A DNA stretch of 17,207 nucleotides, taken from NCBI GenBank assembly GCA_009920225.1, contig RGAJ01000008.1, positions 1 to 17,207 on the forward strand. The letters are read 5' to 3'. The position numbers were made by a program, and so were the translations under genes. Positions 688 to 17,207 of this stretch are shown here, one piece after another (the first letter of the stretch is position 1; each line of letters begins with the position of its first letter). Origin of the DNA: Paracoccaceae bacterium. Lineage in GTDB: Bacteria > Pseudomonadota > Alphaproteobacteria > Rhodobacterales > Rhodobacteraceae. The notes beneath the pieces are model-generated. The model searched no databases, was not told where the DNA came from, and was given only the letters and a program-made list of their open reading frames with translations.

Positions 688-702
688 GGGCGTGGTGCCC
701 CC

Positions 703-1941: not shown

Positions 1942-1956
1942 GACTTTCCCTTTATC

Positions 1957-2016
1957 CCTGAATTGCGGCGGGTTTATGCGTTTGCGCGATCAGATACAAG
2001 ATACAATCAATTCAGG
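1957..2016 (-). promoter_or_regulatory. lysC leader with 9-bp perfect inverted repeat
   Basis: CCTGAATTG (1957-1965) and CAATTCAGG (2008-2016) are perfect 9-bp inverted arms separated by 42 nt, in the 95-nt gap between the DUF1178 gene and lysC. In the lysC mRNA the 3' arm would sit just 5' of the AAAGGG Shine-Dalgarno. The loop contains a tandem TGTATCT/TGTATC repeat. It could be an mRNA stem that influences lysC translation, or a split DNA operator. The arms are real in sequence; the function is inference. Confidence 0.4.
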
Positions 2017-2036
2017 TGCAACATATAACCGCACAC

Positions 2037-2459
2037 TTAATTGGTTTTTCGGTTCGGCATAAATGGCAGGGGCACAACGTTTATCCCGTCTTCGATCAAG
2101 GACTTTGCTTCTTCTGGTTTTGCCTCGCCATAGATTGACCGCTCCGGCGCGTCCCCAAGATGCATTTTGCGCGCCTCTGCGGCAAAGTTTTTTCCCACAT
2201 AATCCGAATTGGCTTCGATCTTTTTGCGCATCTCTTGGATGGCACGCGCGGTGTGATCATCTGGTGCCATCAGGGGTGTCGTTTCTGCGGCTTTGCCGGT
2301 CGAGACACGCGGCGCCATGATCGCCTTTTGCACCTTGGTCGATCCGCAGATGTTACAGGTCACCATGTCCGCACCAGACAGTTTGTCAAACGCATCAGCG
2401 GATGCAAACCAGCTGTCGAATGTATGATCGTTGTCACATTTCAAGCTATAGCTAATCAT
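2037..2459 (-). CDS. DUF1178 family protein
   Basis: The 140-residue protein starts MISYSLKCDNDHTFDSWF, matching the DUF1178 family pattern of alpha- and betaproteobacteria. Conserved parts visible are the early Cys and His, a CNIC (CxxC) pair near residue 37 that suggests a small zinc site, the K-x-MAPRVSTGK segment, and a VPLPF motif near the C-terminus. The start at 2459 is chosen over an upstream in-frame ATG because the family begins with this methionine. Function is unknown. The gene lies on the same strand between the TRAP operon terminator and lysC; no operon partner is obvious. Confidence 0.88.
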   Translation of the reverse strand: MISYSLKCDNDHTFDSWFASADAFDKLSGADMVTCNICGSTKVQKAIMAPRVSTGKAAETTPLMAPDDHTARAIQEMRKKIEANSDYVGKNFAAEARKMHLGDAPERSIYGEAKPEEAKSLIEDGINVVPLPFMPNRKTN

Positions 2460-2542
2460 GGTCGAACACTGCCATCGTTGGGTCGACAACACATATTGGT
2501 ATGGGCCGGAAAAATCAAGCATGTCGCGTCCGTTTGATCGCG

Positions 2543-2575
2543 CAAAAGAAAAAGGGGCCGCGGCACAGCCCCTTT
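2543..2575 (-). terminator. Rho-independent terminator of the TRAP operon
   Basis: On the minus strand AAAGGGGC (2575-2568) pairs perfectly with GCCCCTTT (2558-2551) around a 9-nt loop. It is followed directly by a TTTTTCTTTT tract. It lies about 22 nt after the stop of the large permease gene and before the DUF1178 gene. Confidence 0.85.
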
Positions 2576-2596
2576 GAAGTGTTGATCAGAAATGTC

Positions 2597-5251: not shown

Positions 5252-5256
5252 AGACC

Positions 5257-6255
5257 TCAGTGAGAAACAGCAGTGATTTCGCGGCGACCAGGTTCATCCC
5301 GTTTGTCTGCGATTGCACTTAGGAAATAGCTGACAAATTGGATCAGCATGGTGATAGCGAACAGGCCGATAAAGACAGCCATTTGATATTTGATATACAT
5401 GCCTGCGCTGCCGGATTGGGACACTTCGAAGGTGCGCACAGGCGCGTTGATCATCGAAGTTGGGCCAGAAAACCCAACGATCAAGATCACCCAAGCCGTG
5501 GACATGCCCAAGAACACAGTGCCAATGGCGTTCACCTTGCCCTTGGCGCGGGAATTCAGACCGGCAAACACGATATCAACCCGAACGTGACCTTCGTCAT
5601 AAAGGGTATAGGCGGACGCAAACAGGAACAAGGCCGCGTACCAATAGCGAACCAGATCGCCCATGAACGCCTGTTCATATGAGAAAATAAAGCGCGACAG
5701 CACGATGCCCAATTCGGCGGCGGCAATCAACGCGGCCAGCCAATGGAACCCGAGTGTCGGGGTAAAGCGGGCCAATGTAAAGGCCACAACGATCAAGGGC
5801 ATGTGAATATAGGGGGCCACAAACGCCGCGCGTCCAAATTCACGGGCAAATTCAACCGTGAACCAAAGGTTCAAGACTTCTTCAACACGCAGGAACGACA
5901 GGGCCGCGTCCGCAATCCCAACGATGAACACGCTCCAAAACAGGGCGCGAACCAGATAACAGTTGAAATTGTGGATGGTTTGCGCATCCCACCGCAGCGA
6001 TTGGTTCGGGGTCGAACGGACATATGCCAACGCAATGACCAAACCAACAACGTAAATACCAACAGTGATCAACGCCCCGCCTGACATCCCGACCGTCGGG
6101 ATTTCAGTAACGCGTGGTGTGCCATATCCAATGTTCAGGATGTTATTGATCAAAAAACCAGCAAGAACCGCCAAAGATCCCCAACCGAACAAACGCGGCA
6201 GGATGGCAGGTGTACCATGCTTTTCGACATTGGGGGAATTGCCCAAATCTGACAT
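5257..6255 (-). CDS. TRAP transporter small permease (DctQ-like), extended form
   Basis: The 332-residue protein is longer than typical DctQ subunits (about 160-220). The DctQ-like signature is in the second half: DEGHVRVDIVFAGLNSRAKG and the following helices near residues 220-280. The first half adds several hydrophobic segments (about 22-42, 53-75, 98-118, 142-160), so about eight membrane spans are expected. The start at 6255 (MSDLGNSPN) is chosen over an in-frame ATG at 6291 because GGAGAGGG stands 3-5 nt upstream of it. The gene lies between the binding protein and the large permease, with a 5-nt gap to the latter. Long small subunits are, from memory, found in the mannitol/chloroaromatic (TakP-like) TRAP group. 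Its partners support the call. Confidence 0.85.
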   Translation of the reverse strand: MSDLGNSPNVEKHGTPAILPRLFGWGSLAVLAGFLINNILNIGYGTPRVTEIPTVGMSGGALITVGIYVVGLVIALAYVRSTPNQSLRWDAQTIHNFNCYLVRALFWSVFIVGIADAALSFLRVEEVLNLWFTVEFAREFGRAAFVAPYIHMPLIVVAFTLARFTPTLGFHWLAALIAAAELGIVLSRFIFSYEQAFMGDLVRYWYAALFLFASAYTLYDEGHVRVDIVFAGLNSRAKGKVNAIGTVFLGMSTAWVILIVGFSGPTSMINAPVRTFEVSQSGSAGMYIKYQMAVFIGLFAITMLIQFVSYFLSAIADKRDEPGRREITAVSH

Positions 6256-6365
6256 GTGCCCTCTCCAAAAGGAAAATGTGTCTGAATTCACAAAATTAAA
6301 TTCTGCGAAATATCGCCGGACCGAATGTCATGATGACGGCGTATGTGGACCGGCACGATATAGGA

Positions 6366-6397
6366 ATGGCGAGGCCTGCCAACACAAACCTCGCCAT
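6366..6397 (-). other. Intercistronic stem-loop between binding protein and permease genes
   Basis: ATGGCGAGG (6366-6374) and CCTCGCCAT (6389-6397) form a perfect 9-bp stem with a 14-nt loop, 20 nt after the binding protein stop. No convincing U-tract follows on the minus strand (TTCCTATAT). It fits an mRNA 3'-end stabiliser or partial attenuator that keeps binding protein levels above permease levels better than a full terminator. Confidence 0.6.
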
Positions 6398-6416
6398 AGA
6401 TCAGCTGTTCGCCGAC

Positions 6417-7559
6417 TTAGCCACCAATGCCCAAGATACGGTTACGTTGGTTGATAAATGTACCTTCCAACGACGCGATAGTGCCGCCGATTTCACGCAG
6501 CTTTTGCTGGAAATGATCGTCGATTTTCGTCGCCAATGCAGAGTGCGCACGGGTTTCTTCGAACACTTCTTCCGCCGCCACACCGAACGCATCCCAGATG
6601 TCGTCGTTAAAGTTGCGAACTTGAACGCCTTGCTCGTCGATCAGCTTTTGCATGTACTCGCCGTTTTTCGCCATAGCTTCGTCATGTGACGCAGCATGCT
6701 CTTCATAGGCTGCAGCTGTGATGACTGTGCGTTCCCAATCGGTCAAAGAGCCCCACCAAGATGCGTTCAGGCCTAGTGCAAGACCGCCGCCTGGCTCGTG
6801 CATACCACCGGTGTAGTAGTATTTCGACGCTTCATAGAACTTCATGAAATAGTCGTTGTATGGACCAACCCACTCGGTCGCTTCGATCGCGCCAGATACA
6901 AGGTTTTCATAGATTTGGCCGCCTGGCAAAGATACCGAAGACGCGCCCATTTTTGTGATAACCTGACCACCTAGGCCTGGCATACGCATTTTCAAACCTT
7001 TAAAGTCGTCTGGGCTTTCCATTTCTTTGTTGAACCAACCACCCGCTTGGGTACCTGTTGAACCAACTGGCAATTTCACTGTACCAAATTCGCCGGACAG
7101 TTCGTTCCAAAGCTCTTGGCCGCCGCCGTATTTGATCCATGCGTTCCATTCTTGTGTGGACATGCCAAATGGAACAGATGTGAAATACGCGAAGCCCGGG
7201 TGTTTACCAGTCCAGTAGTAATCCGCGCCGATATACGCGTTTGCATTGCCAGAAGACACTTCGTCAAACGCATCGAATGCGCCAACACGTTCTCCGGCTG
7301 CGAAATATTCGGTCTGAATAGCTCCGTTTGAAATTTCATTTACGCGTGCAGCAAAGCGTTGCGCCGAAATACCCAACCCTGGGAAGTCACGTGGCCAAGT
7401 GGACACAATGGTCATCGCTCGTGTGCCTTGTGATACAGCTGGAGCACTGAGTTCTTCGCTTTTAGCATTTTTACTCTGGCTCGAGTTATAAGCGGCAACG
7501 GCTGCCGCACCTGCAACAACGCCGACGGCGGCACCGCTCAGAAAACTTCTTCTTTCCAT
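6417..7559 (-). CDS. TRAP transporter substrate-binding protein, TakP-like, Tat-exported
   Basis: This is a 380-residue periplasmic solute receptor. The N-terminus MERRSFLSGAAVGVVAGAAA carries the twin-arginine RRSFL motif and a hydrophobic stretch, so folded export by Tat is likely. TRAP receptor features include TQAGGWFNKEM (~170-180), the KGLKMRMPGLGGQV segment with the expected carboxylate-binding Arg at ~192, and IEATEWVGPY with Glu229-Trp230. These match, from memory, residues that bind pyruvate and Na+ in R. sphaeroides TakP (Gln, Arg, Glu, Trp), suggesting a 2-oxo or hydroxy acid ligand; the exact substrate is inference. The ATG at 7559 is preferred over an in-frame GTG five codons upstream because GAGGAA precedes it at a good distance. 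It is first in the TRAP operon. Confidence 0.92.
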   Translation of the reverse strand: MERRSFLSGAAVGVVAGAAAVAAYNSSQSKNAKSEELSAPAVSQGTRAMTIVSTWPRDFPGLGISAQRFAARVNEISNGAIQTEYFAAGERVGAFDAFDEVSSGNANAYIGADYYWTGKHPGFAYFTSVPFGMSTQEWNAWIKYGGGQELWNELSGEFGTVKLPVGSTGTQAGGWFNKEMESPDDFKGLKMRMPGLGGQVITKMGASSVSLPGGQIYENLVSGAIEATEWVGPYNDYFMKFYEASKYYYTGGMHEPGGGLALGLNASWWGSLTDWERTVITAAAYEEHAASHDEAMAKNGEYMQKLIDEQGVQVRNFNDDIWDAFGVAAEEVFEETRAHSALATKIDDHFQQKLREIGGTIASLEGTFINQRNRILGIGG

Positions 7560-7623
7560 TAAATTGTTCCTCACTGTTTATATTTAGGATCGCAATCACG
7601 ATTTAGACCTCGGTATTGGCAAG

Positions 7624-7650
7624 GTTATATTACCAGTTTTTTCTGCGCAA
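7624..7650 (-). promoter_or_regulatory. Candidate promoter of the TRAP operon
   Basis: On the minus strand TTGCGC (7650-7645) and TATAAC (7629-7624) are 15 nt apart, 65 nt upstream of the binding protein start. The overlapping TGGTAATAT could act as an extended -10. Spacing and -35 are not ideal, so this is a weak call within the 243-nt gap 7560-7802, where nothing else coding was seen. Confidence 0.3.
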
Positions 7651-7781
7651 CACTTAATAATCAAAGCGTGTTCTTATCACCAATATCGCAGTGTTTCGCG
7701 AATTGGTTGGTTTGAATGGCCTCTCACATCGGTCTGCGTCACCCTCAGTGAAGACCGCGCACCTGCAATCTGTCAAGTAAA

Positions 7782-7806
7782 TTAGATATAAATATTTGTA
7801 ATCTAA
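7782..7806. repeat. AT-rich imperfect palindrome at the end of the TetR gene
   Basis: TTAGAT (7782-7787) and ATCTAA (7801-7806) flank a central AAATATTT. The right arm overlaps the stop codon of the TetR-type gene. It could be an operator for the TRAP operon or incidental AT-rich sequence. Confidence 0.3.
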
Positions 7807-8453
7807 CGGCTGTGCCCGCCCAGATTGAGCTGGGACACCACATTTAGAAACATCGTTTCAAACCGCAGCGCATCGCGGAAGTGTACGATGTCGGATGACA
7901 ACGCCGCGCGTTTGCGTTCAACTGCGCCAAAATGCCCCGCCCCAAGCGCAGCAGTATAAAATGCCCAGACCGCACGCGACGCGGTTTCAGAATCAATATT
8001 CAGCGCGTCGCAAAAAATTTGTGCTTGTCGGTCCAACATCTGCTGGAACGATTCCATCATCTCTTGATATGTTTCGTCTGGCAGTCCGGCATCAAATTGA
8101 TCATGCGCCGCATGCATAAGTGGTAAAATCAAATCGTCTTGGATCAGTGTTGCGGCGTAGGTTTGGCAAAAATCATCGTATGACATCGTGTTTGTCAGCG
8201 TTCGTTCAAACCGCGCGATCCAGTCCCCAAGCGATTTTACAAAAAGTGCTGCCAAAATTTCATGCCGCGTTTTGAAATAAAGATACAGCGTCCCTTTGGC
8301 GACATTGCATGCGGCACTCAGGGCGTTCATTGACAACCCGTCCAGACCGGTGTCCCGTGCAATCCTTTCGGCGATCACCAAGATAAATTCGCCCTTGGCG
8401 ATTTTCTCAGCCGGTGTTTCCGCGCGATCTATTCGTTTCATGTGACTGCCCAT
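7803..8453 (-). CDS. TetR family transcriptional regulator
   Basis: The 216-residue protein has an N-terminal TetR helix-turn-helix at about residues 20-70: AERIARDTGLDGLSMNALSA, then ACNVAKGTLYLYFKTRHEIL. The all-helical C-terminal ligand domain is not specific. It is divergent from the racemase/nitroreductase pair and followed on its own strand by the TRAP operon, so either could be its target. There is no strong Shine-Dalgarno before the ATG at 8453; an alternative in-frame ATG at 8441 would drop four residues (MGSH). Ligand is unknown. Confidence 0.9.
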   Translation of the reverse strand: MGSHMKRIDRAETPAEKIAKGEFILVIAERIARDTGLDGLSMNALSAACNVAKGTLYLYFKTRHEILAALFVKSLGDWIARFERTLTNTMSYDDFCQTYAATLIQDDLILPLMHAAHDQFDAGLPDETYQEMMESFQQMLDRQAQIFCDALNIDSETASRAVWAFYTAALGAGHFGAVERKRAALSSDIVHFRDALRFETMFLNVVSQLNLGGHSR

Positions 8454-8477
8454 TTTTTGAAAACGCTAGCATAGAGA

Positions 8478-8490
8478 TGACGGAAGGTCA
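8478..8490. promoter_or_regulatory. Candidate TetR-type operator in the divergent intergenic region
   Basis: TGAC (8478-8481) and GTCA (8487-8490) are inverted arms around GGAAG in the 109-nt gap between the TetR gene and the racemase. Position and dyad form suit an autoregulatory operator, but the arms are only 4 bp and may be chance. Confidence 0.3.
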
Positions 8491-8562
8491 CTTAAAAATC
8501 CGATTTTGTGCGCTTGCGACTGTGTCAAATGTGAATAGTGTTAAGCGTGAAAGGATGCCCAA

Positions 8563-9657
8563 ATGCTTGCTGGTGTTACAATCATAGAAGTCGAAGCCTT
8601 GGGTCCCGCGCCCTTTGCAGGGCGCATGTTGGCAGAATTGGGCGCGGATGTGATTGTTATTCATCGCAAAGATGACGGCCATTCCCCTGCTAAATCGGCG
8701 CAAAGCCCGTTGGACGCAGGAAAACGATCCATCTCGCTAAACCTGAAAGAGACGGCAGATGTTGCAATTGCGCGGGATCTGATTGCAGCGGCCGACGCGG
8801 TGATCGAAGGGTTTCGCCCCGGTGTCATGGAAAAGCTGGGCCTCGGGCCGGATGTCGTGATGCGTGACAATCCCGCGTTGGTATTTGGTCGCATGACAGG
8901 GTGGGGACAATCAGGACCGCTGTCACATGTGGCAGGGCATGATTTGAACTATATCGCGCTGTCGGGCGCCTTGCATTATGCGGGGACGCCTGATGCGATC
9001 CCCCAAACGCCCGCCACAGTTGTGGGTGATATAGGGGGCGGCGCGCTCTATCTGGTCGCGGGGGTTTTGTCTGGCCTGATCCAAGCGATGAAAACCGGTG
9101 TCGGCACTGTCGTGGATGCCGCCATTGTCGATGGGTCCGCGCATATGATGAACCTTGTGATGTCGCTGCAATCCATCGGCGGGGTGTCGATGCAGCGCGG
9201 CCAGAGCTTTTTGGACGGGCCGCATTGGTCGCGCGTCTATCGTTGTGCGGATGGGCGGTATATCAGTGTGCAATGTATTGAACCCCAGTTTTATGCGCTG
9301 TTCCTGACGGTGATGGACCTTGGCGCGGATGATGATTTCGCAAGGCCCTATGACACCTCACAATGGCCCAAAGCCTGCGCGCGATTGACAGAGATGTTTG
9401 CGCAGCACCCCCAAGATCACTGGGCCGCCCTTTTTGACGGAACGGATGCTTGCGTCGCACCTGTTTTGTCACCTGATCGTGCAGCGATGCATCCGCATGT
9501 CGCCGCGCGTGGGATTTGGGAAAACACCGATGGCATTCTAAGCGCCGCACCTGCGCCACGGTTTTCAAATTATGACGCGCCGCATGGACAAATTCCGCAT
9601 CGTGACGGGGATCGCGATGCCATTCTCGCATGGGCCGCAGCGGCCAAAGGACGGTGA
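8563..9657 (+). CDS. CaiB/BaiF family protein, alpha-methylacyl-CoA racemase type
   Basis: The 364-residue protein has the length of the alpha-methylacyl-CoA racemase branch of class III CoA-transferases. The N-terminal VEALGPAPFAGRMLAELGAD is the family opening. Catalytic residues known from the Mycobacterium tuberculosis racemase MCR are present at the same numbers: His126-Asp127 (GHDLNYIALSG), Asp156 (VVGDIGGG) and a Glu at 240 (CIEPQFY; Glu241 in MCR). MCR Asn152 is Thr here. It likely epimerises 2-methylacyl-CoA esters for beta-oxidation; a CoA-transferase role is less likely. An AAAGGA Shine-Dalgarno precedes the ATG at 8563. The nitroreductase follows 4 nt later, so they form an operon, probably controlled by the divergent TetR protein. 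Confidence 0.88.
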   Translation: MLAGVTIIEVEALGPAPFAGRMLAELGADVIVIHRKDDGHSPAKSAQSPLDAGKRSISLNLKETADVAIARDLIAAADAVIEGFRPGVMEKLGLGPDVVMRDNPALVFGRMTGWGQSGPLSHVAGHDLNYIALSGALHYAGTPDAIPQTPATVVGDIGGGALYLVAGVLSGLIQAMKTGVGTVVDAAIVDGSAHMMNLVMSLQSIGGVSMQRGQSFLDGPHWSRVYRCADGRYISVQCIEPQFYALFLTVMDLGADDDFARPYDTSQWPKACARLTEMFAQHPQDHWAALFDGTDACVAPVLSPDRAAMHPHVAARGIWENTDGILSAAPAPRFSNYDAPHGQIPHRDGDRDAILAWAAAAKGR

Positions 9658-9661
9658 TCAG

Positions 9662-10333
9662 ATGACAGATATCCAAGTCTTGAACACAATCATGGATCGG
9701 CGGTTTTCATGCCGCGGGTTCTTGGACACATCCGTTGACCGAAAGGTGATCGACGCAATCGTTGCAACGGCGCAAAAAGTACCCAGTTGGTGCAATTCGC
9801 AGCCATGGCAGCTGCATCTTTTGTCGCCCCGTGCGCGGGATCAGTTGTCTGCACGTTTGTTGCAGGCGGCCCAAGATGGGCAAGAGGCCCCCGATATCGC
9901 CTTTCCTGAACGCTATTCAGGGGCTTACAAGCATCGCAGATCGGTCTGTGGCTGGCAGCTTTATGATGCGGTGGGGGTCAAGAAGGGGGATCGCGACGGT
10001 TCCATTCGTCAAATGATGGAAAACTATCGTTTTTTTGGTGCGCCGCATGTGGCGATCATTTCAACGCCGCGCGAACTGGGGGCCTATGGCGCATTGGATT
10101 GTGGGGCATTTGTTACGGCGTTTACGCTCGCCGCAAGCGCGCACGGGGTTGCCACGATTCCACAGGCTGCGGTTGCCGGCAAGGCGGCGATTGTGCGCGA
10201 TGTGATTGGTCTGGATGCGGCGCGCGATGTGCTTTGCGCGATATCGTTTGGCTATGCCGATCCCGATCATCCAGCCAATGCGTTTCGTACGGAACGCGCT
10301 GGGCTGGATGAGGTTGTTTTTGACGTTGATTAG
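9662..10333 (+). CDS. Nitroreductase family FMN oxidoreductase
   Basis: The 223-residue protein carries nitroreductase features: an N-terminal phosphate-binding MDRRFSCRGF, VPSWCNSQPWQLHLL near residues 40-54 for FMN contact, and a late GVATIPQAAV-like segment followed by AISFGYADPDHPAN. Such enzymes reduce nitro, quinone or enoate groups with NAD(P)H. ATG 9662 is chosen over an in-frame ATG at 9572, which lies inside the racemase gene; AAGGACGG precedes 9662. It follows the racemase by 4 nt. Its stop codon overlaps by 4 nt with the 3' end of the convergent RidA-family gene. The natural substrate is unknown. Confidence 0.92.
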   Translation: MTDIQVLNTIMDRRFSCRGFLDTSVDRKVIDAIVATAQKVPSWCNSQPWQLHLLSPRARDQLSARLLQAAQDGQEAPDIAFPERYSGAYKHRRSVCGWQLYDAVGVKKGDRDGSIRQMMENYRFFGAPHVAIISTPRELGAYGALDCGAFVTAFTLAASAHGVATIPQAAVAGKAAIVRDVIGLDAARDVLCAISFGYADPDHPANAFRTERAGLDEVVFDVD

Positions 10334-10680
10334 GCTTTTGCCGCCACAACGATGATTTCCACACGGTACTCAGGTGTGGCAAGCGCAGATTCGCCTGCCG
10401 CGCGGGCAGGGGTGTGACCTTGGGGGACCCATGCATCCCAAACCGCGTTCATTTCAGCAAAATCCGCCATATCGGCAAGCCAGACTTGGGCAGACAGAAT
10501 GCGTGTTTTGTCGGACCCGCATTCGGCCAACAGCCGATCAATACTGTCCACGATGCCTTTGGTTTGTTCGGTGACAGAGGCGCCGGGATTGGCGACTTGG
10601 CCAGCCAAGTAAATGGTGTTGCCGTGAACCACGGCTTGGCTCATGCGGGGGCCTGTTTCGATACGAATGATGTCTGACAT
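10330..10680 (-). CDS. RidA (YjgF/YER057c/UK114) family protein
   Basis: The 116-residue product is slightly shorter than canonical RidA. Visible family features are the QAVVHGNTIYLAGQVA opening, SIDRLLAECGSDKTRILSAQ, and the C-terminal TPARAAGESAL with the Arg that holds substrate carboxylates, then a VEI segment. RidA proteins hydrolyse reactive enamine/imine intermediates made by PLP enzymes; some subfamilies lack that activity. An AAGGAG Shine-Dalgarno precedes ATG 10680. It lies 64 nt downstream of the UPF0173 hydrolase on the same strand. Confidence 0.93.
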   Translation of the reverse strand: MSDIIRIETGPRMSQAVVHGNTIYLAGQVANPGASVTEQTKGIVDSIDRLLAECGSDKTRILSAQVWLADMADFAEMNAVWDAWVPQGHTPARAAGESALATPEYRVEIIVVAAKA

Positions 10681-10744
10681 TGGAATGCTCCTTGGTGAAT
10701 TTATGCGTCCTCTAGCGAGGTTTTATCGCCCTGACCAGATGTAA

Positions 10745-11437
10745 TTAGATTTCTATTGCGTGCAAAACCTGCGGTTCAATGACCTGCGCGTTTGGAACTG
10801 CGGCGGCCAAAACATCGGCTGATTGTTCCAAAATCGGGAACGTCCGATAATGACAGGGGATAATTGTTTTGAAATCAAAGAATTTCGCCGCCGCATATCC
10901 CGCACGTTTCATATCCATGGTAAAGTGACCGCCCGCCGCTAAAATCCCGATATCGGGATGGTGAAGGTCGTTGAAAATGGCCATATCCGCCATAACATCC
11001 GTGTCGCCCGAGACATAGATTGTATGTCCTTCGCCCGAAATCATAAAGCCGCATTCGGACCCCGCTGCCATCAATTCGCCGTCTGGGGACATCGTGGATG
11101 AATGCACCGCATTGACCATTGTGACCGAAACATTACCCAGTTGGACGGTGCCACCTTTGTTAAATCCCACAACTTTGATGCCGTTTTTGCGTTCCAGATA
11201 TCCCATGAGATCGTATTGCCCGACGACTGGGATATCCAAATCCTTGGCAAGCGTGGGTGTATCCGCGATGTGGTCAAAATGTGCATGTGTCAAAAGGATA
11301 TGCGTGGCACCTGTGACCGCCTGCGGATGCTGTGTTTCGGTCAACATCGGATTTCCCGTCAGCCACGGATCAATCAATAACACTTGATCCGCAATTTCGA
11401 TGCGAAATGACGCATGTCCCAGCCACGTAATTTTCAT
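10745..11437 (-). CDS. UPF0173 metal-dependent hydrolase (metallo-beta-lactamase fold)
   Basis: The 230-residue protein begins MKITWLGHASFRIE and has the metal-binding THAHFDH at residues 50-56 (His51, His53, Asp55, His56). It also has VSGDTDVMADM, AAGGHFTMD and the late PCHYRTFPIL, all typical of UPF0173 (YtkL-like). It is a probable zinc-dependent cytoplasmic hydrolase with no known substrate. The start at 11437 is chosen because AAGGAA lies 8 nt upstream and the family begins with MKI; an upstream extension of 32 codons is not family-like. It is divergent from gatC. Confidence 0.93.
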   Translation of the reverse strand: MKITWLGHASFRIEIADQVLLIDPWLTGNPMLTETQHPQAVTGATHILLTHAHFDHIADTPTLAKDLDIPVVGQYDLMGYLERKNGIKVVGFNKGGTVQLGNVSVTMVNAVHSSTMSPDGELMAAGSECGFMISGEGHTIYVSGDTDVMADMAIFNDLHHPDIGILAAGGHFTMDMKRAGYAAAKFFDFKTIIPCHYRTFPILEQSADVLAAAVPNAQVIEPQVLHAIEI

Positions 11438-11607
11438 CTGTCTGTTCCTTTTGATCTGTTGGTTTGTTTGAGTATTTTTACAAAAGTGAAAGATGTGCAA
11501 TGAAAATAGACAAAACTGCCCGCCACGCCGCATGTTTATAGGTTCTATCCGCTTGCAGCGACGCGCGCGCAGCGTTAAACGGGTGACGAGTTATGAAGGA
11601 GAGCCTT

Positions 11608-11895
11608 ATGTCCATTGATACGGCAATCGCTGCAAAAGTCGCCAAATTGGCGCGAATTCGCGTTGAAGAAGATGCGCTGCCTGCGTTGGCAGAAGAATTC
11701 AACAATATTTTGGGCTTTATCGAGCAGCTCAATGAAGTGAATGTCGATGGGGTCGAGCCAATGACATCTGTCACGCCACAGCGGTTGAAGCGCCGTGTGG
11801 ATGTGGTCAATGATGGCGATCAGCAGGATAAGGTTTTGAAAAACGCGCCCGATGCGCGTGAAGGGTTCTTTGCGGTTCCAAAGGTGGTTGAATAA
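11608..11895 (+). CDS. gatC: Asp-tRNA(Asn)/Glu-tRNA(Gln) amidotransferase subunit C
   Basis: The 95-residue protein has the normal GatC length and features: [53 protein letters not shown], and a C-terminal [14 protein letters not shown]. GatC wraps around GatA and stabilises it in the GatCAB complex that amidates mischarged Glu-tRNA(Gln) or Asp-tRNA(Asn). The ATG at 11608 has AAGGAG just upstream; an in-frame ATG at 11593 overlaps that Shine-Dalgarno and is unlikely. The stop overlaps the gatA start by 1 nt (TAATG). Confidence 0.96.
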
Positions 11896-13376
11896 TGAGC
11901 GCACTAAACACATTCACAATCGCCGAAGCGCGCGACAAATTGCGTGCAAAAGAGGTCACTGCCGTTGAGCTGACCCAAGCCTGTTTGACCGCGATCGAGG
12001 GTGCGGATGCGCTGGGCGCTTATGTGCACAAGACGCCTGATCTGGCGATGGAGCAAGCCAAAGCTGCGGATGCACGCCTGGCTGCGGGTGATGCGCCGGA
12101 CATGTGTGGCATCCCTTTGGGCATCAAAGACTTGTTTTGTACCAAAGGCGTTGATAGCCAAGCCGCGAGCCGCATTTTGCAAGGGTTCAAGCCTGAATAT
12201 GAAAGCACGGTCAGCCAAAATCTGTTGGATGCGGGCACGATTACGTTGGGCAAGCTGAACATGGACGAATTCGCCATGGGCAGTTCGAATGAAACATCTG
12301 TGTATGGAAATGCTGTCAACCCATGGAAAGTCGATGATCGTCAATTGACGCCTGGTGGTTCGTCTGGCGGCTCTGCCTCGGCGGTGGCGGCGGATTTGTG
12401 TTTGGCCGCTACAGGAACCGACACCGGTGGATCCATTCGCCAACCCGCTGCGTTCACGGGCATTGTGGGGATTAAACCCACCTATGGTCGCTGTTCCCGT
12501 TGGGGCGTTGTCGCGTTTGCGTCGTCCTTGGACCAAGCGGGCCCAATGACAAAAACTGTGCGCGATGCCGCGATCATGTTGGAAACCATGGCCGGTTATG
12601 ATCCGAAAGACAGCACAAGCGCGGATATCCCCGTGCCAAATTTCGAAGCCATGTTAACAGGCGACATTCGGGGCAAGAAAATCGGTATTCCAAAAGAATA
12701 CCGCATGGATGGCATGCCCGCCGAGATCGAGAAACTGTGGGAAGATGGCACAGCCAAGCTGCGTGATGCAGGCGCCGAGATCGTCGATATTTCATTGCCA
12801 CACACCAAATACGCTTTGCCTGCCTATTACGTGATTGCCCCTGCGGAAGCGTCGTCTAACCTTGCGCGGTATGACGGTGTTCGGTTCGGTCATCGCGCCA
12901 GTTTGGCGGCGGGTGATGGCATCACAGAAATGTACGAAAAAACCCGTGCCGAAGGGTTCGGACCAGAGGTACAGCGCCGCATTATGGTTGGCACCTATGT
13001 GTTGTCTGCGGGCTTTTATGACGCCTATTACAACCGCGCACGCCGCGTTCGGGCCTTGATCAAAAAGGATTTCGACGATGTGTTCGCGGCAGGGGTTGAT
13101 GCGATTTTGACGCCTGCGACACCCTCTGCGGCTTTTGGATTGGGCGAAATGACAGATGCGGATCCGGTTCAAATGTATCTAAATGACGTGTTTACCGTGA
13201 CCGTGAACCTTGCCGGTTTGCCCGGTATTTCGGTTCCGACGGGATTGGATTCTACGGGTTTGCCATTGGGTCTGCAATTGATCGGCCGTCCATGGGAAGA
13301 GGGCGATTTGCTAAATACCGCCTATGCGTTGGAACAGGCGGCGGGCTTTGTGGCCAAACCACAAAAGTGGTGGTAA
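11895..13376 (+). CDS. gatA: Asp-tRNA(Asn)/Glu-tRNA(Gln) amidotransferase subunit A
   Basis: The 493-residue amidase-signature protein carries the full Ser-cisSer-Lys triad: Lys78 in [11 protein letters not shown], the cis-Ser in [12 protein letters not shown] (~156), and the nucleophile Ser180 in [14 protein letters not shown]. It frees ammonia from glutamine and passes it to GatB for tRNA-dependent amidation. The C-terminus [14 protein letters not shown] is family-typical. It overlaps gatC by 1 nt, so translation is coupled. gatB is not in the window. Confidence 0.97.
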
Positions 13377-13406
13377 AAGACCCCAAACGGGTACGAAGGA
13401 TGGATT

Positions 13407-14042
13407 ATGCGTAAAATTTTGCTAGGGGTTTCGATGTTGGCAGTGTTCGGCTGTACCGAACCTGAGATCCCCAACAGCGGCTATGTTCCCCAAGGGGAAC
13501 AGCGCGCGCGAGACGCCCAATTGGCAGGGATCCCAAGCCCCGTCGAAGTCAGCGCAGATGAGTTGGACGCCAACAGCCCCGATTTCACATCTGGGGATGA
13601 CGTCGTCACGACCGAAAGCTCAATTGCGCCAACGCCCACCTTTGACAATCCCGGTTTGTCAGATGAACAAGATTTCAGCGCAGTCGCAGATCGTCAATCG
13701 ATTGAAAGCGATGCGGCACGTTTGGAACGCAACAGATCGCTGTACCAAGTGATTGAACCCACCGCGGTTCCCCGCCGTCCGGGGACAGATATTCCGAATA
13801 TCGTTGAATTTGCCATCCGCACAACCAATCCAGTTGGCGCGGAACTGTATTCCCGTGGTCCATTTTCGACCGAAGCGCGCTTTCGACGCAATTGTCAGAA
13901 ATTCGTATCTGATGCCGCAGCTCAAGAAGCGTTTTTGTCCAACGGCGGACCAGAGCGGGATCGCTTGGGTCTTGACCCAGACGGTGATGGCTTTGCCTGC
14001 TATTGGGATCCAACGCCATTCCGTTTGGCGCGCAAAAAATAA
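13407..14042 (+). CDS. Lipoprotein with C-terminal Excalibur-like calcium-binding motif
   Basis: The 211-residue protein begins MRKILLGVSMLAVFGCTEPE, a type II signal with a lipobox ending at Cys16. The middle (about 20-110) is acidic, low complexity and probably disordered. The C-terminal part (about 160-205) has RNCQKF and DPDGDGFACYWDP; the DxDxDG loop followed by Cys is the mark of Excalibur-type extracellular calcium-binding domains. An AAGGATGG Shine-Dalgarno precedes ATG 13407. It sits 30 nt after gatA and 3 nt before an AmpD-type amidase, so it may work at the cell wall. Residues after the lipobox Cys do not settle which membrane it is anchored in. No specific function is known. Confidence 0.82.
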   Translation: MRKILLGVSMLAVFGCTEPEIPNSGYVPQGEQRARDAQLAGIPSPVEVSADELDANSPDFTSGDDVVTTESSIAPTPTFDNPGLSDEQDFSAVADRQSIESDAARLERNRSLYQVIEPTAVPRRPGTDIPNIVEFAIRTTNPVGAELYSRGPFSTEARFRRNCQKFVSDAAAQEAFLSNGGPERDRLGLDPDGDGFACYWDPTPFRLARKK

Positions 14043-14045
14043 CGC

Positions 14046-14729
14046 ATGACCACGTGGTGCCCATCGCCGAATTTTTCGGAACGTCGGGGTGGGTTACAGG
14101 CGCAGTACGTGGTTCTTCATTACACCGCAATGAACAGCGCGCGCGCAGCGATTGATCGCCTGTGCGCCCCTGAATTCGAGGTCTCTGCACATTACGTGAT
14201 CGATGAACATGGCCGCGTGACGCAGCTGGTGGATGAGGCGCATCGCGCATGGCACGCAGGCCGGTCGTTTTGGCAAGGATGCGAGGATATGAATTCCGCC
14301 TCGATTGGCATCGAATTGTGCAATCGTGGTACCCATCCCTTTCCACATCCTCAAATGCAACAGCTGCGCAGCCTGTTGGCTGGCATCACACACCGCTGGT
14401 CTCTTCCTAGGTCTCATGTGATCGGGCATTCCGATATTGCCTTGGGGCGCAAAACCGATCCCGGATCGCGGTTTGATTGGCGGGGGCTTGCGCGCGACGG
14501 CTTTGGGCTTTGGCCGCAAGAACACACTGCGATCAATGATCCAGCGCAGTTTTTGGACCATGCCGCACAGGTCGGATATGATGTGGCAGTCGGGGTACAC
14601 CCCGTGTTGCAGGGATTTCGATTGCACTTCGCACCCCATCGCGTTGGCGCGCTTGGCCCAGACGATTGCGCAGACATGGCGTCGCTGGCGCATCAAACAG
14701 TGGTTGACCAAACCCCGCCTTCAGCCTAA
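14046..14729 (+). CDS. N-acetylmuramoyl-L-alanine amidase, AmpD-like (Amidase_2)
   Basis: The 227-residue protein has no signal peptide, so a cytoplasmic AmpD-like role in recycling anhydro-muropeptides is likely. Zinc/catalytic residues are visible: His25 (VLHYTA), Glu90 (IGIELCNRG), and GHSDIALGRKTDPG giving His128, Lys136 and Asp138, with the same His-to-Asp spacing of 10 as E. coli AmpD (His154/Asp164). The last ~50 residues form a helical tail resembling a small peptidoglycan-binding segment (VHPVLQGFRLHF). There is no good Shine-Dalgarno; the ATG lies 3 nt after the lipoprotein stop, so translational coupling is probable. Its stop codon is part of the rnpB -10 box. Confidence 0.92.
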   Translation: MTTWCPSPNFSERRGGLQAQYVVLHYTAMNSARAAIDRLCAPEFEVSAHYVIDEHGRVTQLVDEAHRAWHAGRSFWQGCEDMNSASIGIELCNRGTHPFPHPQMQQLRSLLAGITHRWSLPRSHVIGHSDIALGRKTDPGSRFDWRGLARDGFGLWPQEHTAINDPAQFLDHAAQVGYDVAVGVHPVLQGFRLHFAPHRVGALGPDDCADMASLAHQTVVDQTPPSA

Positions 14730-14732
14730 ATC
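14704..14732 (+). promoter_or_regulatory. Predicted rnpB promoter inside the amidase 3' end
   Basis: TTGACC (14704-14709) and TAAATC (14727-14732) are separated by exactly 17 nt. The expected start, 6-7 nt later (14738-14739), coincides with the first base of the RNase P RNA P1 helix. The TAA of the -10 is the amidase stop codon. Confidence 0.65.
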
Positions 14733-14737
14733 AGCCC

Positions 14738-15129
14738 CACGCGGGGCGCTGGATGGCCGCGGGCCTTGGCCCGAGGAAAGTCCGGACTCCACAAAGCAAT
14801 GGTGCCAGGTAACGCCTGGGCGGGGCAACCCGACGGAAAGCGCAACAGAGAACAAACCGCCCGTGCAGGTCACGGGTAAGGGTGAAACGGTGGGGTAAGA
14901 GCCCACCGGAGGACTGGTAACAGGACTCGCATGGCAAGCCCCACCAGGAGCAATGCCGAATAGGAACCTTGCGCGGGGCATGATCGGGCAACCGATATCG
15001 CCGCAGGGCAGCTTTGGCCCAAAGGTTCGGGTTGGCAGCTAGAGGCGCAGGGGTGACCTTGCGTTTAGATGAATGGTCATCCAAGGGGGAAACCCCTGGA
15101 CAAAATCCGGCTTATAGGTGCCCCGCGTG
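14738..15129 (+). ncRNA. rnpB: RNase P RNA (class A)
   Basis: This is the catalytic RNA that trims tRNA 5' leaders. The P1 helix is a perfect 10-bp pairing of CACGCGGGGC (14738-14747) with GCCCCGCGTG (15120-15129). The conserved 5' core GAGGAAAGTCCGGACTCC starts at 14773. Further core pieces are ACAGAGAACAAACCGCC, GGTAAGGGTGAAACGGTG, AGAGCCCACCG and the 3' core ACAAAATCCGGCTTA just before P1. The length of ~392 nt fits alphaproteobacterial forms. A T7 run (15133-15139) and a second T7 (15143-15149) follow and probably end transcription. Confidence 0.97.
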
Positions 15130-15159
15130 TTATTTTTTTGCCTTTTTTTCCAAAGCCTG

Positions 15160-15187
15160 TTGACTCGGGCGTAGGTATAGGTAAAAG
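15160..15187 (+). promoter_or_regulatory. Predicted rpmG promoter
   Basis: TTGACT (15160-15165) and TAAAAG (15182-15187) are 16 nt apart, upstream of rpmG and after the rnpB T-tracts. The -35 is strong and the -10 moderate. Confidence 0.5.
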
Positions 15188-15242
15188 GCAAACCTCATAG
15201 GAATTCGCGGGCAACCTACACGCCCGACGCAGGAGATGTAAA

Positions 15243-15518
15243 ATGGCGAAGCCAACCACGATCAAAATCCGCCTGAACTCGACCGCGGGCACTGGCCACT
15301 TCTACGTGACCAAGAAAAACGCACGTACCATGACCGAAAAAATGGTTGTGCGTAAGTACGACCCGCACCAATATGTCGTTTTTATCATTGCGCGACGCCC
15401 CAGATTTGGCGATGATATTTCTATCAAGGTGCCTGCCACCGCAGGAGAATTGGGAAGTCGGTGCAACCCCGACGCTGCCCCCGCAACGGTGAGGGTGGAA
15501 TGTGTCATGAACCACTGA
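15243..15518 (+). CDS. rpmG: 50S ribosomal protein L33 with its normal C-terminus replaced
   Basis: Residues 1-41 are standard alphaproteobacterial L33 ([20 protein letters not shown] onward to VRKYDP). AGGAG precedes the ATG at a good distance. Family members of this type are 55 residues and end in a basic tail close to VxRKHVEYKEGKIK. Here similarity stops at the codon ending 15365. The frame instead runs 50 further codons with no L33 likeness, stopping at 15518 inside the cobalamin riboswitch aptamer. No frame near the junction restores the tail, so this is not a simple frameshift. L33 sits at the ribosomal E site; the lost tail is basic. Possible explanations are a real deletion/recombination at 15366, a degraded second copy, or an assembly chimera. 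The gene start is certain; the end is uncertain as biology. Confidence 0.75.
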
Positions 15519-15586
15519 GCATATCTTGGGAAGGTCATGATGCACGGCGCAAGCCATCCGCCCCGAGCCCGGAAACCAGCCTTGAT
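15423..15586 (+). ncRNA. Cobalamin (adenosylcobalamin-type) riboswitch
   Basis: The closing stem ATCAAGG (15423-15429) pairs with CCTTGAT (15580-15586). Inside are the conserved aptamer blocks in order: GGGAAGTCGGTGCAACCCCG, GCTGCCCCCGCAACGGT, a peripheral arm with CCACTGAGCATATCTTGGGA, and the B12 box GAGCCCGGAAACCAGCC (from 15565). This class binds coenzyme B12 and usually shuts off translation or transcription of uptake or synthesis genes downstream. Its target here is the small gene at 15728. The rpmG reading frame runs into the aptamer up to 15518, so ribosomes from rpmG could disturb folding. Confidence 0.93.
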
Positions 15587-15637
15587 CAGAGAACGTCAAC
15601 CTACGGTGGGTGGGTCAGGGCCTGTGTAAATGTGTCC

Positions 15638-15695
15638 TATGCTATCCACCATTCATGCCACGGGGCGTGGCGGAAGGAATGAAATGGATAGGATA
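15638..15695 (+). promoter_or_regulatory. Hairpin covering a Shine-Dalgarno: likely riboswitch expression platform
   Basis: A multi-part stem is visible: TATCCA/TGGATA (15643-15648 with 15685-15690), ATTC/GAAT (15651-15654 with 15677-15680), and GCCACG/CGTGGC (15657-15662 with 15666-15671) closing a GGG loop. The 3' side contains GGAAGGA (15672-15678), the best ribosome binding site here, and the ATG at 15684. No T-tract follows, so control of translation is more likely than termination. Confidence 0.5.
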
Positions 15696-15731
15696 TGTCT
15701 TGTGACCTCGATGGACGGGGGCACGCAATGA
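15684..15731 (+). CDS. Possible 15-residue leader peptide ORF
   Basis: ATG 15684 follows GGAAGGA by 5 nt and encodes MDRICLVTSMDGGTQ. Its TGA (15729-15731) overlaps the ATG of the next gene at 15728 as ATGA, the classic layout for translational coupling. It gives the 94-aa gene, whose own ribosome site is poor, a means to be controlled by the hairpin. It is too short to identify by content, and could instead be an accident of sequence. Confidence 0.35.
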   Translation: MDRICLVTSMDGGTQ

Positions 15732-16012
15732 CCGCACAAACAATTTACGAAACACTGCGGGATTATCCCGTAACCGACGACATGGCTGACCGTGCAGCGC
15801 GTGATGGGTTCTTGGAGTGGCTGATCACATTGCCCGCCCGCAACGATCCTCAAACCGAAGCACAGCGTGCCTTGCACAAGCTGCCCGATCAAATCTGCGA
15901 GAATCGCGCCTGTCAGCTCTTTGTGGGTTTTTTGGCCCAAGCGGCCAAACGCCCTGTCTGCGCACCGACCCGCAAAGGCGGATCCCGCATGCGGCGTCGC
16001 GTTTTACACTAA
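15728..16012 (+). CDS. Unknown 94-residue protein downstream of the cobalamin riboswitch
   Basis: I do not recognise this family. The product starts MTAQTIYETLRDYPVTDDMA, has a hydrophobic FLEWLITLPA stretch, three Cys (ENRACQLF, RPVCAPT and one at IC), and ends in a basic tail RKGGSRMRRRVLH. There is no signal peptide or clear membrane span. An alternative in-frame ATG at 15695 would add 11 residues, but its ribosome site is poorly spaced; 15728 is preferred for the ATGA overlap with the leader ORF. Being the only gene after the riboswitch suggests B12-repressed expression, hence a role when cobalamin is scarce. That role is inference. It is convergent with the CcsR RNA operon. Confidence 0.6.
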   Translation: MTAQTIYETLRDYPVTDDMADRAARDGFLEWLITLPARNDPQTEAQRALHKLPDQICENRACQLFVGFLAQAAKRPVCAPTRKGGSRMRRRVLH

Positions 16013-16022
16013 GGGGTAAGGC

Positions 16023-16060
16023 AAAAAAAACGACGACGCAAGGGAGGAGAGCGTCGTCGT
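16023..16060 (-). ncRNA. CcsR-like hairpin 4, also the operon terminator
   Basis: On the minus strand a perfect 10-bp stem ACGACGACGC/GCGTCGTCGT (16060-16051 with 16039-16030) presents the loop UCUCCUCCCUU and is followed at once by eight U (16030-16023). It is thus both the last anti-Shine-Dalgarno-like hairpin and a Rho-independent terminator. Confidence 0.85.
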
Positions 16061-16069
16061 CTTCTGTCA

Positions 16070-16105
16070 AAACAAACCCATAGGGAGGAGGAATAGGGTC
16101 TGTTT
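16070..16105 (-). ncRNA. CcsR-like hairpin 3
   Basis: AAACAGACCC (16105-16096 on the minus strand) pairs with GGGTTTGTTT (16079-16070) over 10 positions. The single irregular pair is G-U only if the minus strand is the RNA; it would be A-C on the plus strand. The loop contains the full CCUCCUCCC motif, one base longer than in the other three. Confidence 0.82.
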
Positions 16106-16108
16106 ATG

Positions 16109-16125
16109 TCGGGCCCGAAGGCCGA
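16109..16125 (-). other. UUCG tetraloop hairpin between CcsR-like hairpins 2 and 3
   Basis: On the minus strand GGCC-UUCG-GGCC gives a C(UUCG)G tetraloop with a short extension (one bulged base, then C-G and U-A). Such loops are very stable and could help separate or process the flanking RNAs. No U-tract follows, so it is not a terminator. Confidence 0.5.
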
Positions 16126-16131
16126 ATTTTT

Positions 16132-16165
16132 GGCAAGCAATCAAGGGAGGAGAAGATTGCCTGCC
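16132..16165 (-). ncRNA. CcsR-like hairpin 2
   Basis: GGCAGGCAATC (16165-16155 on the minus strand) pairs with GATTGCTTGCC (16142-16132) over 11 positions. One is a G-U pair that exists only in minus-strand RNA. The 12-nt loop is UUCUCCUCCCUU, carrying the CUCCUCCC motif. Confidence 0.85.
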
Positions 16166-16173
16166 GATGCGGT

Positions 16174-16202
16174 GATCAAGGTAAGGGAGGAGAACCTTGA
16201 TC
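16174..16202 (-). ncRNA. CcsR-like hairpin 1
   Basis: A perfect 9-bp stem GATCAAGGT/ACCTTGATC holds the loop UCUCCUCCCUU. It begins 9 nt after the DUF1127 stop codon. In R. sphaeroides the CcsR1-4 RNAs (stress-induced RNAs with a conserved CCUCCUCCC loop) are processed from a transcript shared with a DUF1127 gene, the same order as here. Confidence 0.87.
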
Positions 16203-16211
16203 CACGAATTC

Positions 16212-16424
16212 TTAGTAGCCTGCCGCTTCCAATGCGACGGAGCGGATCATTGAGCGTGACAAGCCCAAGTCGGCCAATTCACGGTTGCTCAACGCGGACA
16301 GTTCAGAGACTGTTTTTTTGTATGCACGACGGCGCTCGATGCGCTGTGCCAAATCTGTTAAAACGTCTGCTGCACGTGCAAGAAGTGTTGCTGAGTGTGC
16401 TGGTGTCTGTACTGCGTATGCCAT
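16212..16424 (-). CDS. DUF1127 family small basic protein (CcaF1-like)
   Basis: This 70-residue protein has the DUF1127 pattern in its second half (about 27-66): RIERRRAYKKTVSELSALSN then RELADLGLSRSMI. The basic helical segment suits RNA binding. In R. sphaeroides the DUF1127 protein encoded upstream of CcsR1-4 (RSP_6037, CcaF1) has been described as an RNA-binding protein affecting processing of these RNAs. Here four CUCCUCCC hairpins follow immediately, so the same role is inferred. AAGGAT lies about 9 nt before ATG 16424. Its expression is probably stress-induced through the heat-shock-like promoter upstream. Confidence 0.9.
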   Translation of the reverse strand: MAYAVQTPAHSATLLARAADVLTDLAQRIERRRAYKKTVSELSALSNRELADLGLSRSMIRSVALEAAGY

Positions 16425-16480
16425 TTCATATCATCCTTCGTCTAAGCGCGGTTCATTCATTCGTTGCGCTGTTGAGATGA

Positions 16481-16509
16481 ATATGAGGCTTTTGCTGCAA
16501 TTGCACAAT
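16481..16509 (-). promoter_or_regulatory. Heat-shock sigma (RpoH)-like promoter of the DUF1127-CcsR operon
   Basis: On the minus strand ATTGTGC (16509-16503), a 14-nt spacer and CCTCATAT (16488-16481) resemble the RpoH pattern CTTGAAA-N14-CCCCATNT, strongest in the -10. A 10-bp palindrome TGCAATTGCA (16496-16505) lies across the spacer and -35 and might bind a regulator. The start would be near 16474, giving a ~50-nt leader. Confidence 0.5.
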
Positions 16510-16703
16510 AATCATGTTCGCAATGCCGCTATGCAGCAAGTGCATGGAATAACATAGGAATTTTTACAAAATTGTTAGGGTAATCCGTTTAGGGGTGAAT
16601 ATTAGGATTTAAAGATCGCCCGATGCGTGTGATGCCTGCACCGGTATCATGGCCGCTATATCGGGATGGAATAGCAGGGTGAGACATCGATTTTGAACGC
16701 AGA
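16510..16703. other. Intergenic stretch between the RpoH-like promoter and tonB; one bipartite inverted repeat
   Basis: No coding region is credible here. A stem-loop is visible at 16619-16665: outer arms CCCGAT/ATCGGG and inner arms TGATGCC/GGTATCA around TGCACC. The inner irregular pair is G-T on the plus strand and would be A-C on the minus strand, so it does not look like a minus-strand tonB terminator, and no T-run follows on either strand. Confidence 0.4.
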
Positions 16704-17207
16704 TCACTTTTGGCCGAGTCGGATTGGAATTTGGAACGTATATGATGATTGCGTCAATTCTTTTGGGGCCGCAGGGAATCGCGCACGTTTAACCGCGCTC
16801 AATGCCGCTTGATCCAACCGTCCATCATTTGACGATTTATAAACCTGCGCTGACCGCAAGGCACCGTTTTGGGCAACAACCAATGCAATCACAACCGTGC
16901 CTGAGGCACGGGTTCCATTCGGATAGAACTTTTTGCGCTCAATCGCGTGTCGTATTTTTCCACCCCACGCAGCCGTCGCCTGTTTGAGAACGCCCGCGCG
17001 TTCGACAGACTGTGTTGGTGCTTGTGAAGTCCCTGCGGATTTGTTTGATGCCTTGGCGCTGCCCTTGGCCCGTTCTGAAACTTTGGGTGCGGCTGACGGG
17101 GGCTTGGGCGACGGTGCGGTTTTAGTGACCTGTTGTTCGGGCCGTGGTTTCGGACGCAGGCTTTCGGTCAAAATTTGGTGGGGTTGCGGCTCTGGCGCAG
17201 ATGTCTC
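16704..17207 (-). CDS. TonB family protein, C-terminal part (5' end cut by window edge)
   Basis: The frame is open from the window edge to the TGA at 16704, giving 167 residues; the TTG at 17171 is not needed as a start because the frame is open above it. The first ~80 residues are rich in Pro, Lys, Ser and Ala, the periplasm-spanning linker of TonB proteins. Residues ~85-167 form a TonB C-terminal domain: WGGKIRHAIERKKFYPNGTR, GTVVIALVVAQNGALRSAQV, AALSAVKRARFPAAPKEL and YTFQIPIRL. TonB couples ExbBD proton-motive energy to outer-membrane receptors for iron chelates or cobalamin. The N-terminal anchor helix and any exbBD genes lie outside the window. Confidence 0.88.
   Translation of the reverse strand, partial: ETSAPEPQPHQILTESLRPKPRPEQQVTKTAPSPKPPSAAPKVSERAKGSAKASNKSAGTSQAPTQSVERAGVLKQATAAWGGKIRHAIERKKFYPNGTRASGTVVIALVVAQNGALRSAQVYKSSNDGRLDQAALSAVKRARFPAAPKELTQSSYTFQIPIRLGQK

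Follow-up and report, generated by a model that had tools for sequence, protein, structure and literature searches.

The stretch of DNA analysed here, referred to throughout as the window, comprises 17,207 nt and corresponds to positions 1-17,207 of the forward strand of contig RGAJ01000008.1, from an assembly of a Paracoccaceae bacterium (GCA_009920225.1, genome G000 in the comparisons below) that consists of 586 contigs and is 92% complete. On the minus strand it carries, in this order, a DUF1127 gene (16424-16212), four stable hairpins and, behind the last of these, a tract of eight U residues (16023-16030). The DUF1127 identity of the 70-aa product, assigned earlier from the letters alone, is confirmed by a Pfam match to PF06568 at 51.3 bits (cut-off 23.3), as is the placement of the gene directly upstream of the hairpins and in the same direction; hairpin 1 begins 9 nt past its stop codon. 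It is the sole DUF1127 match in its own assembly at E values up to 1e-3. The protein was aligned with 11 relatives, and at the loci encoding the nearest by identity, L038 (68%) and L039 (67%), the gene is likewise followed by these four hairpins and a U-rich end. The plus strand of the window carries a class A RNase P RNA (14741-15130, 286.5 bits) and a cobalamin riboswitch (15410-15598, 112.9 bits), the latter ahead of a 105-aa open frame that runs toward the hairpin array and has no Pfam match. A cobalamin riboswitch also lies beyond the U-rich end in L038 and L039, on the strand opposite DUF1127, as in the window.

The hairpin array is organized around a short motif, GGGAGGAG, which an earlier note on this DNA had placed on the plus strand at 16042, 16083, 16145 and 16185, and all four positions are correct. 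These copies fall inside 151 nt, each within a hairpin loop, and make up the entire count for the 17.2-kb window, against 0.21 expected; none of 200 dinucleotide shuffles reached four. Read as minus-strand RNA, all four loops contain CUCCUCCC, although the motif as the earlier note had given it is present in full (CCUCCUCCC) in loop 3 only, the remaining three loops reading UCUCCUCCC. Also borne out is the observation that the loops are conserved while the stem sequences differ, the four stems in the window being unlike each other. The stems comprise 9, 11, 10 and 15 pairs with no mismatches, and each hairpin is stable when folded singly: hairpin 1 (16174-16202, loop UCUCCUCCCUU) at -10.8 kcal/mol and z -4.4, hairpin 2 (16132-16165, loop UUCUCCUCCCUU) at -16.8 kcal/mol and z -4.4, hairpin 3 (16070-16105, loop UAUUCCUCCUCCCUAU) at -11.4 kcal/mol and z -3.6, and hairpin 4 (16025-16065, loop UCUCCUCCCUU), in which a 10-bp core is extended by pairs with the U tract, at -21.8 kcal/mol and z -6.5. 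Between hairpins 2 and 3 lies a small spacer hairpin without the motif (16109-16125, minus strand), weak on its own (z -1.25, equalled by 24 of 200 shuffles). The direction of the array, which had been deduced from G-U pairs, is supported by one such pair in each of hairpins 2 and 3, C-A on the opposite strand, and by the folding of the 211-nt region as a whole, which reaches -78.7 kcal/mol and z -9.6 as minus-strand RNA against z -3.8 as plus-strand RNA, with none of 200 shuffles folding as well in either case. A function of the plus strand was considered and rejected on its poorer fold and its C-A mismatches.

Comparison of the stems in related genomes, which had been proposed as a check on the array, shows that they covary around fixed loops. 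The set consisted of 49 hairpins, one taken at random per locus and picked by the loop TCTCCTCCTCCCT blind to the stems; the shuffles leave the relatedness of the loci in place. The covariation score was 0.688, compared with 0.246 in shuffles, none of 500 of which reached the observed value, and with at most 0.287 when slid. Double changes numbered 139 against 55 in shuffles, and at a fixed register 78.8% of cells were paired against 52.0% in shuffles, leaving 21.2% unpaired. Changes on both sides were seen at 10 of 10 pairs, a count that shuffles nearly equal at 9.6 of 10, which leaves the score and the tally of double changes as the informative measures. Closer to the window, one pair of hairpin 4 is kept through A-U and G-C among the three nearest loci, and one of hairpin 3 through G-U, G-C and A-U; the stem sequences of hairpins 1 and 2 have strongly diverged among the nearest loci. 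A control in which arms were swapped, run on 581 unfiltered motifs, gave a mean score of 25.4 observed and 12.8 swapped, with only 174 of the 581 above the swapped 99% point, a control made less than sharp by the similarity of arms among related hairpins.

The covariance-model search suggested by the earlier note gave a divided outcome, in that two families match on the expected strand and neither reaches its Rfam cut-off; at those cut-offs nothing is found in the hairpin stretch, and elsewhere in the window only the RNase P RNA and the cobalamin riboswitch. The stronger match, to ar14 (RF02344), the family of rhizobial Smr14/NfeR1-type sRNAs, spans 16024-16130 on the minus strand and the whole model at 50.4 bits (E 2.9e-8, gathering score 58.8); the other, to CcsR1 (RF02791), likewise covers its whole model on the minus strand at 26.5 bits (E 2.5e-4, gathering score 65.3). 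Four further families score lower in the cut-off-free scan, the best of them anti-hemB (22.1 bits, E 0.008). The window has the RF02344 layout of three hairpins with CUCCUCCC loops in the last two and a U tail, the weak spacer hairpin aligning to the first hairpin of the model and thereby opening the ar14-like unit; the CcsR1 consensus calls for CCUCCUCCC in both loops of a unit, of which the window has one. The L038 and L039 loci match both families behind their DUF1127 gene, again below the cut-offs. Among 41 family genomes, 33 have ar14 matches at E values up to 1e-3 and only 7 have matches above the cut-off, compared with none of 14 control genomes at all, so that the Rfam models undercount RNAs of this kind; the match in the window is the only one in its own assembly. 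A scan of 20 loci at the Rfam cut-offs found ar14 or CcsR1 in L040, L042, L055, L061, L067 and L117 and in none of the other 14.

The association of such hairpins with DUF1127 was approached from both sides. A pair of CTCCTCCC motifs with 25-55 nt between them occurs in 122 of 149 family genomes (reversed control pattern, 32 of 149), and at loci outside the window chosen by the hairpin pattern alone, the first match in each genome being taken, a DUF1127 match is present in 23 of 29 and absent from 6; 22 of the 23 have E values below 1e-7, and that at L009 is weak (9e-6). Starting from the gene, a set of 81 loci was formed from the window and the best 80 of 557 DUF1127 matches by means of profile A1, which was built from array-linked loci and therefore biases the set toward array-linked genes. 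In this biased set (best 80 of 557 plus the window), at least two stemmed hairpins lie within 2 kb downstream of DUF1127 at 73 of the 81 loci, one at 2 and none at 6, their number where present ranging from 1 to 15. Of the six loci with none downstream, one is on a contig that stops after 159 nt and five have stemmed hairpins upstream. At G051:C4:691717-692220, the five listed hairpin-pair stretches are identical in sequence between and including the motifs, and this looks like a recent tandem expansion. Taken together, the co-directional DUF1127 gene directly upstream, the paired hairpins with anti-Shine-Dalgarno loops and covarying stems, the minus-strand direction, the sub-cut-off Rfam matches and the shared layout in relatives leave the central proposal of the earlier note, a DUF1127 gene followed by sRNAs of the CcsR/cuckoo type, well supported.

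Upstream of the gene, a promoter-like arrangement, TTGTGC-17-CATATT, is present on the minus strand (16508-16503 and 16485-16480), its putative -10 hexamer identical in L038 and L039; a scan of the window stretch with the sigma-70 consensus returned no promoter. A conserved two-part element spans the putative -35 and the DNA ahead of it, with site A (TGCTGCATRGCRGCATTG) first and site B (TTGTGCANNYGCAGCA), which begins 30-31 nt later, covering the -35 itself. In the window, site A is an imperfect palindrome (TGCTGCATAGCGGCATTG, 16521-16538, minus strand) that starts 30 nt ahead of site B (TTGTGCAATTGCAGCA, 16493-16508, minus strand). Among the 81 loci (best 80 of 557 plus the window), the 16-nt site B, TTGTGCA-N3-GCAGCA, is perfect in 62, has one mismatch in 9 (L043: other spacing) and at least two in 10, with none of 405 shuffles showing fewer than two mismatches; in the same best-80-of-557 set a looser form is found within 350 nt upstream at 76 loci, a looser site A (TGCNGCANNGCNGCA) at 38 (shuffled mean 0.05), and the distance from A to B in the 35 loci with both is 31 nt in 22 and 30 nt in 13. 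In wider searches, 14 of 41 genomes have TGCTGCATRGCRGCATTG, each of them a single copy (reversed control, 0), and every one of these copies lies no more than 500 nt ahead of a hairpin array. Of 100 family genomes, 76 have site B, compared with 3 for the control; of 189 genomes beyond the family, 23 have it, compared with 7, and none of the 12 loci examined there is near DUF1127 or the hairpin motif. At 30 family site B loci, one per genome, DUF1127 is downstream in 18, hairpin motifs only are found at L127, and neither is found in 11; the own assembly has one perfect site B, that of the window.

The element also occurs at hairpins set apart from the gene. In six Sulfitobacter/Roseobacter loci (L058, L066, L070, L072, L103 and L110), site B stands ahead of hairpin motifs that lie upstream of DUF1127, accompanied by site A in L058, L066, L103 and L110; in L103 and L110 a hairpin pair (about 2167-2501) has its own A and B, and a second A and B is found at a separate DUF1127 unit. 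Ahead of DUF1127 itself, a variant site B is present in L058, L070 and L072, and the pattern finds none in L066. The possession of an element copy by these separate hairpins indicates that it accompanies the RNAs in addition to the protein gene, and a nearly invariant putative operator ahead of the majority of the DUF1127 loci studied makes the switch for these RNAs testable.

A dedicated regulator of sites A and B is likely, and PhaR is only a possible candidate for it. The PhaR site consensus is CTGC-N3-4-GCAG. Site A in the window, CTGCATAGCGG, is one letter off CTGC-N3-GCAG, and the phasin genes of G000 and of the same-genus genome G115 have two exact CTGC-N3-GCAG sites each, 29 and 28 nt apart; this near identity of site A to paired phasin-gene sites is the reason for considering PhaR or a relative. 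Site B opens with GTGC, not CTGC. PhaR (PF07879) is encoded by 143 of the 149 family genomes, G115 among them, and is not found in the 92% complete own assembly even though the window has both sites; no PhaR match lies behind the phasin gene of that assembly (L154/L162, G000:C62), which is followed by a frame that by eye appears transporter-like, unlike in G115 (L200), where phaR is next. Other genomes point in both directions: G003, a single contig that is 100% complete, lacks PhaR and has a DUF1127 locus with hairpin motifs and neither site, which counts for PhaR, and G098 (84% complete), in which PhaR was not found, keeps site B and a site A with one mismatch, which counts against it. The other genomes without PhaR (G033, G090 and G136) have no hairpin pair and are thus uninformative. 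It is a tentative suggestion that one dedicated regulator, maybe PhaR or a relative, governs the DUF1127/cuckoo-RNA locus of the family through a two-site operator with a spacing of 30-31 nt, or about three helical turns; if true, heat-shock sigma factors would not be the only link, and anti-Shine-Dalgarno RNAs would also be tied to the state of carbon storage.

The following explanation of the locus as a whole is held with considerable confidence. A single minus-strand transcript, predicted to have a leader of about 50 nt ahead of the DUF1127 gene and to be under the control of the dedicated two-site element overlapping its promoter, would encode the 70-aa protein and carry in its 3' part two sRNAs of the cuckoo/CcsR/ar14 type, formed by hairpins 1 and 2 and by hairpins 3 and 4, before ending at hairpin 4 and its U tract. 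The sRNAs would be cut out of the 3' UTR, and their unpaired CUCCUCCC loops are expected to base-pair with mRNAs at GGAGG-rich ribosome-binding sites and so reduce translation of these mRNAs, while the stems would do no more than present the loop. In R. sphaeroides the CcsR RNAs are induced by stress, depend on RpoH and Hfq and are processed from the DUF1127 mRNA; by analogy with its relative there (CcaF1), which reportedly aids processing or turnover of these RNAs, the DUF1127 protein of the window probably helps RNA processing or turnover. Three other CTCCTCCC 8-mers exist in the own assembly, one at a ribosome-binding site (L001) and two inside long open frames (L002, antisense, and L003), and with only one of these three CUCCUCCC complements so placed, pairing would mostly need shorter GGAGG cores. 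The best single target candidate in the own assembly is L001 (G000:C135), where GGGAGGAG at 1501-1508 lies 3 nt ahead of the start codon ATG; the encoded protein, of 393 aa, has a BCCT-transporter match of 26.0 bits, just under the cut-off of 27, and no match in its first 197 aa.

The loops might instead compete generally with the 16S anti-Shine-Dalgarno at many ribosome-binding sites, and not act on a few chosen mRNAs. Each loop includes CCUCC, the anti-Shine-Dalgarno core, and the loops are fixed as the stems vary, which holds for unfixed loops as well as for the set of 49, whose loops were fixed by choice; CcsR1, however, is reported to have flhR as its single defined target, and such general competition is considered unlikely.

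Rather less credence is given to the proposal that the hairpins act in cis, stabilizing and terminating the DUF1127 mRNA, with loops that contact a protein, either Hfq or the product of the DUF1127 gene, in place of other mRNAs. The short distance from the stop codon to hairpin 1 would suit this, as would the distribution of U tracts, which also speaks for the preferred explanation: among the loci of the set (best 80 of 557 plus the window), 37 of 75 arrays have UUUUU behind the last hairpin, compared with 3 of 432 cases behind other hairpins, and its absence from the last hairpin in 38 of the 75 counts against the preferred explanation. In that explanation hairpin 4 is likely the intrinsic terminator; a terminator scan of the window stretch found none, with a loop limit of 8 that shuts out these loops. 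Against an action confined to the DUF1127 mRNA, 5 of the 81 loci (L058, L070, L072, L103 and L110; best 80 of 557 plus the window) have their stemmed hairpins upstream of DUF1127 and none downstream, with site B ahead of the hairpins in all five and site A also in L058, L103 and L110, an arrangement that suggests a transcript of their own.

The preferred explanation, that of excised RNAs acting on other mRNAs, also includes a count of them. The earlier note had equated the four hairpins with CcsR1-4, and this is not supported. Both Rfam models, ar14 and CcsR1, consist of two hairpins with anti-Shine-Dalgarno loops and accordingly cover hairpins 3 and 4 of the window (unit 2), from which hairpins 1 and 2 would form the first pair (unit 1). 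Neighbouring stemmed motifs in relatives are spaced bimodally (35-49 nt in 248 of 432 and 60-74 nt in 96 of 432; best 80 of 557 DUF1127 loci plus the window), the pattern that hairpins arranged in successive pairs would give. Given this spacing and the two hairpins of each model, the array is probably two cuckoo/CcsR-type sRNAs and not four; that four hairpins are present, each stable alone, is the one point in favour of four independent single-hairpin sRNAs, a count that is rejected on model architecture and spacing, that the missing U tracts behind hairpins 1-3 in the window also oppose, and that is accordingly rated the least probable of the alternatives.

The locus in the window is a divergent member of an already known kind of RNA, which is hereby extended to a divergent lineage. 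In Rhodobacter sphaeroides, RSP_6037 (CcaF1) occurs with CcsR1-4, and the window likewise has a DUF1127 gene and then hairpins with anti-Shine-Dalgarno loops on one strand. Hairpins 3 and 4 align to positions 1-83 of the 83 in the CcsR1 model RF02791; the window differs from CcsR1 in its score (26.5 against 65.3 bits), in having four hairpins in about two units and in showing the full CCUCCUCCC in one loop only. With ar14 it shares a small first hairpin, two hairpins with anti-Shine-Dalgarno loops and a U tail, aligned over model positions 1-123 of 123, and differs in score (50.4 against 58.8 bits) and in the linkage of its RNA to DUF1127. The cuckoo RNA family of the Alphaproteobacteria has two hairpins with anti-Shine-Dalgarno loops, and this same architecture is found in the window.
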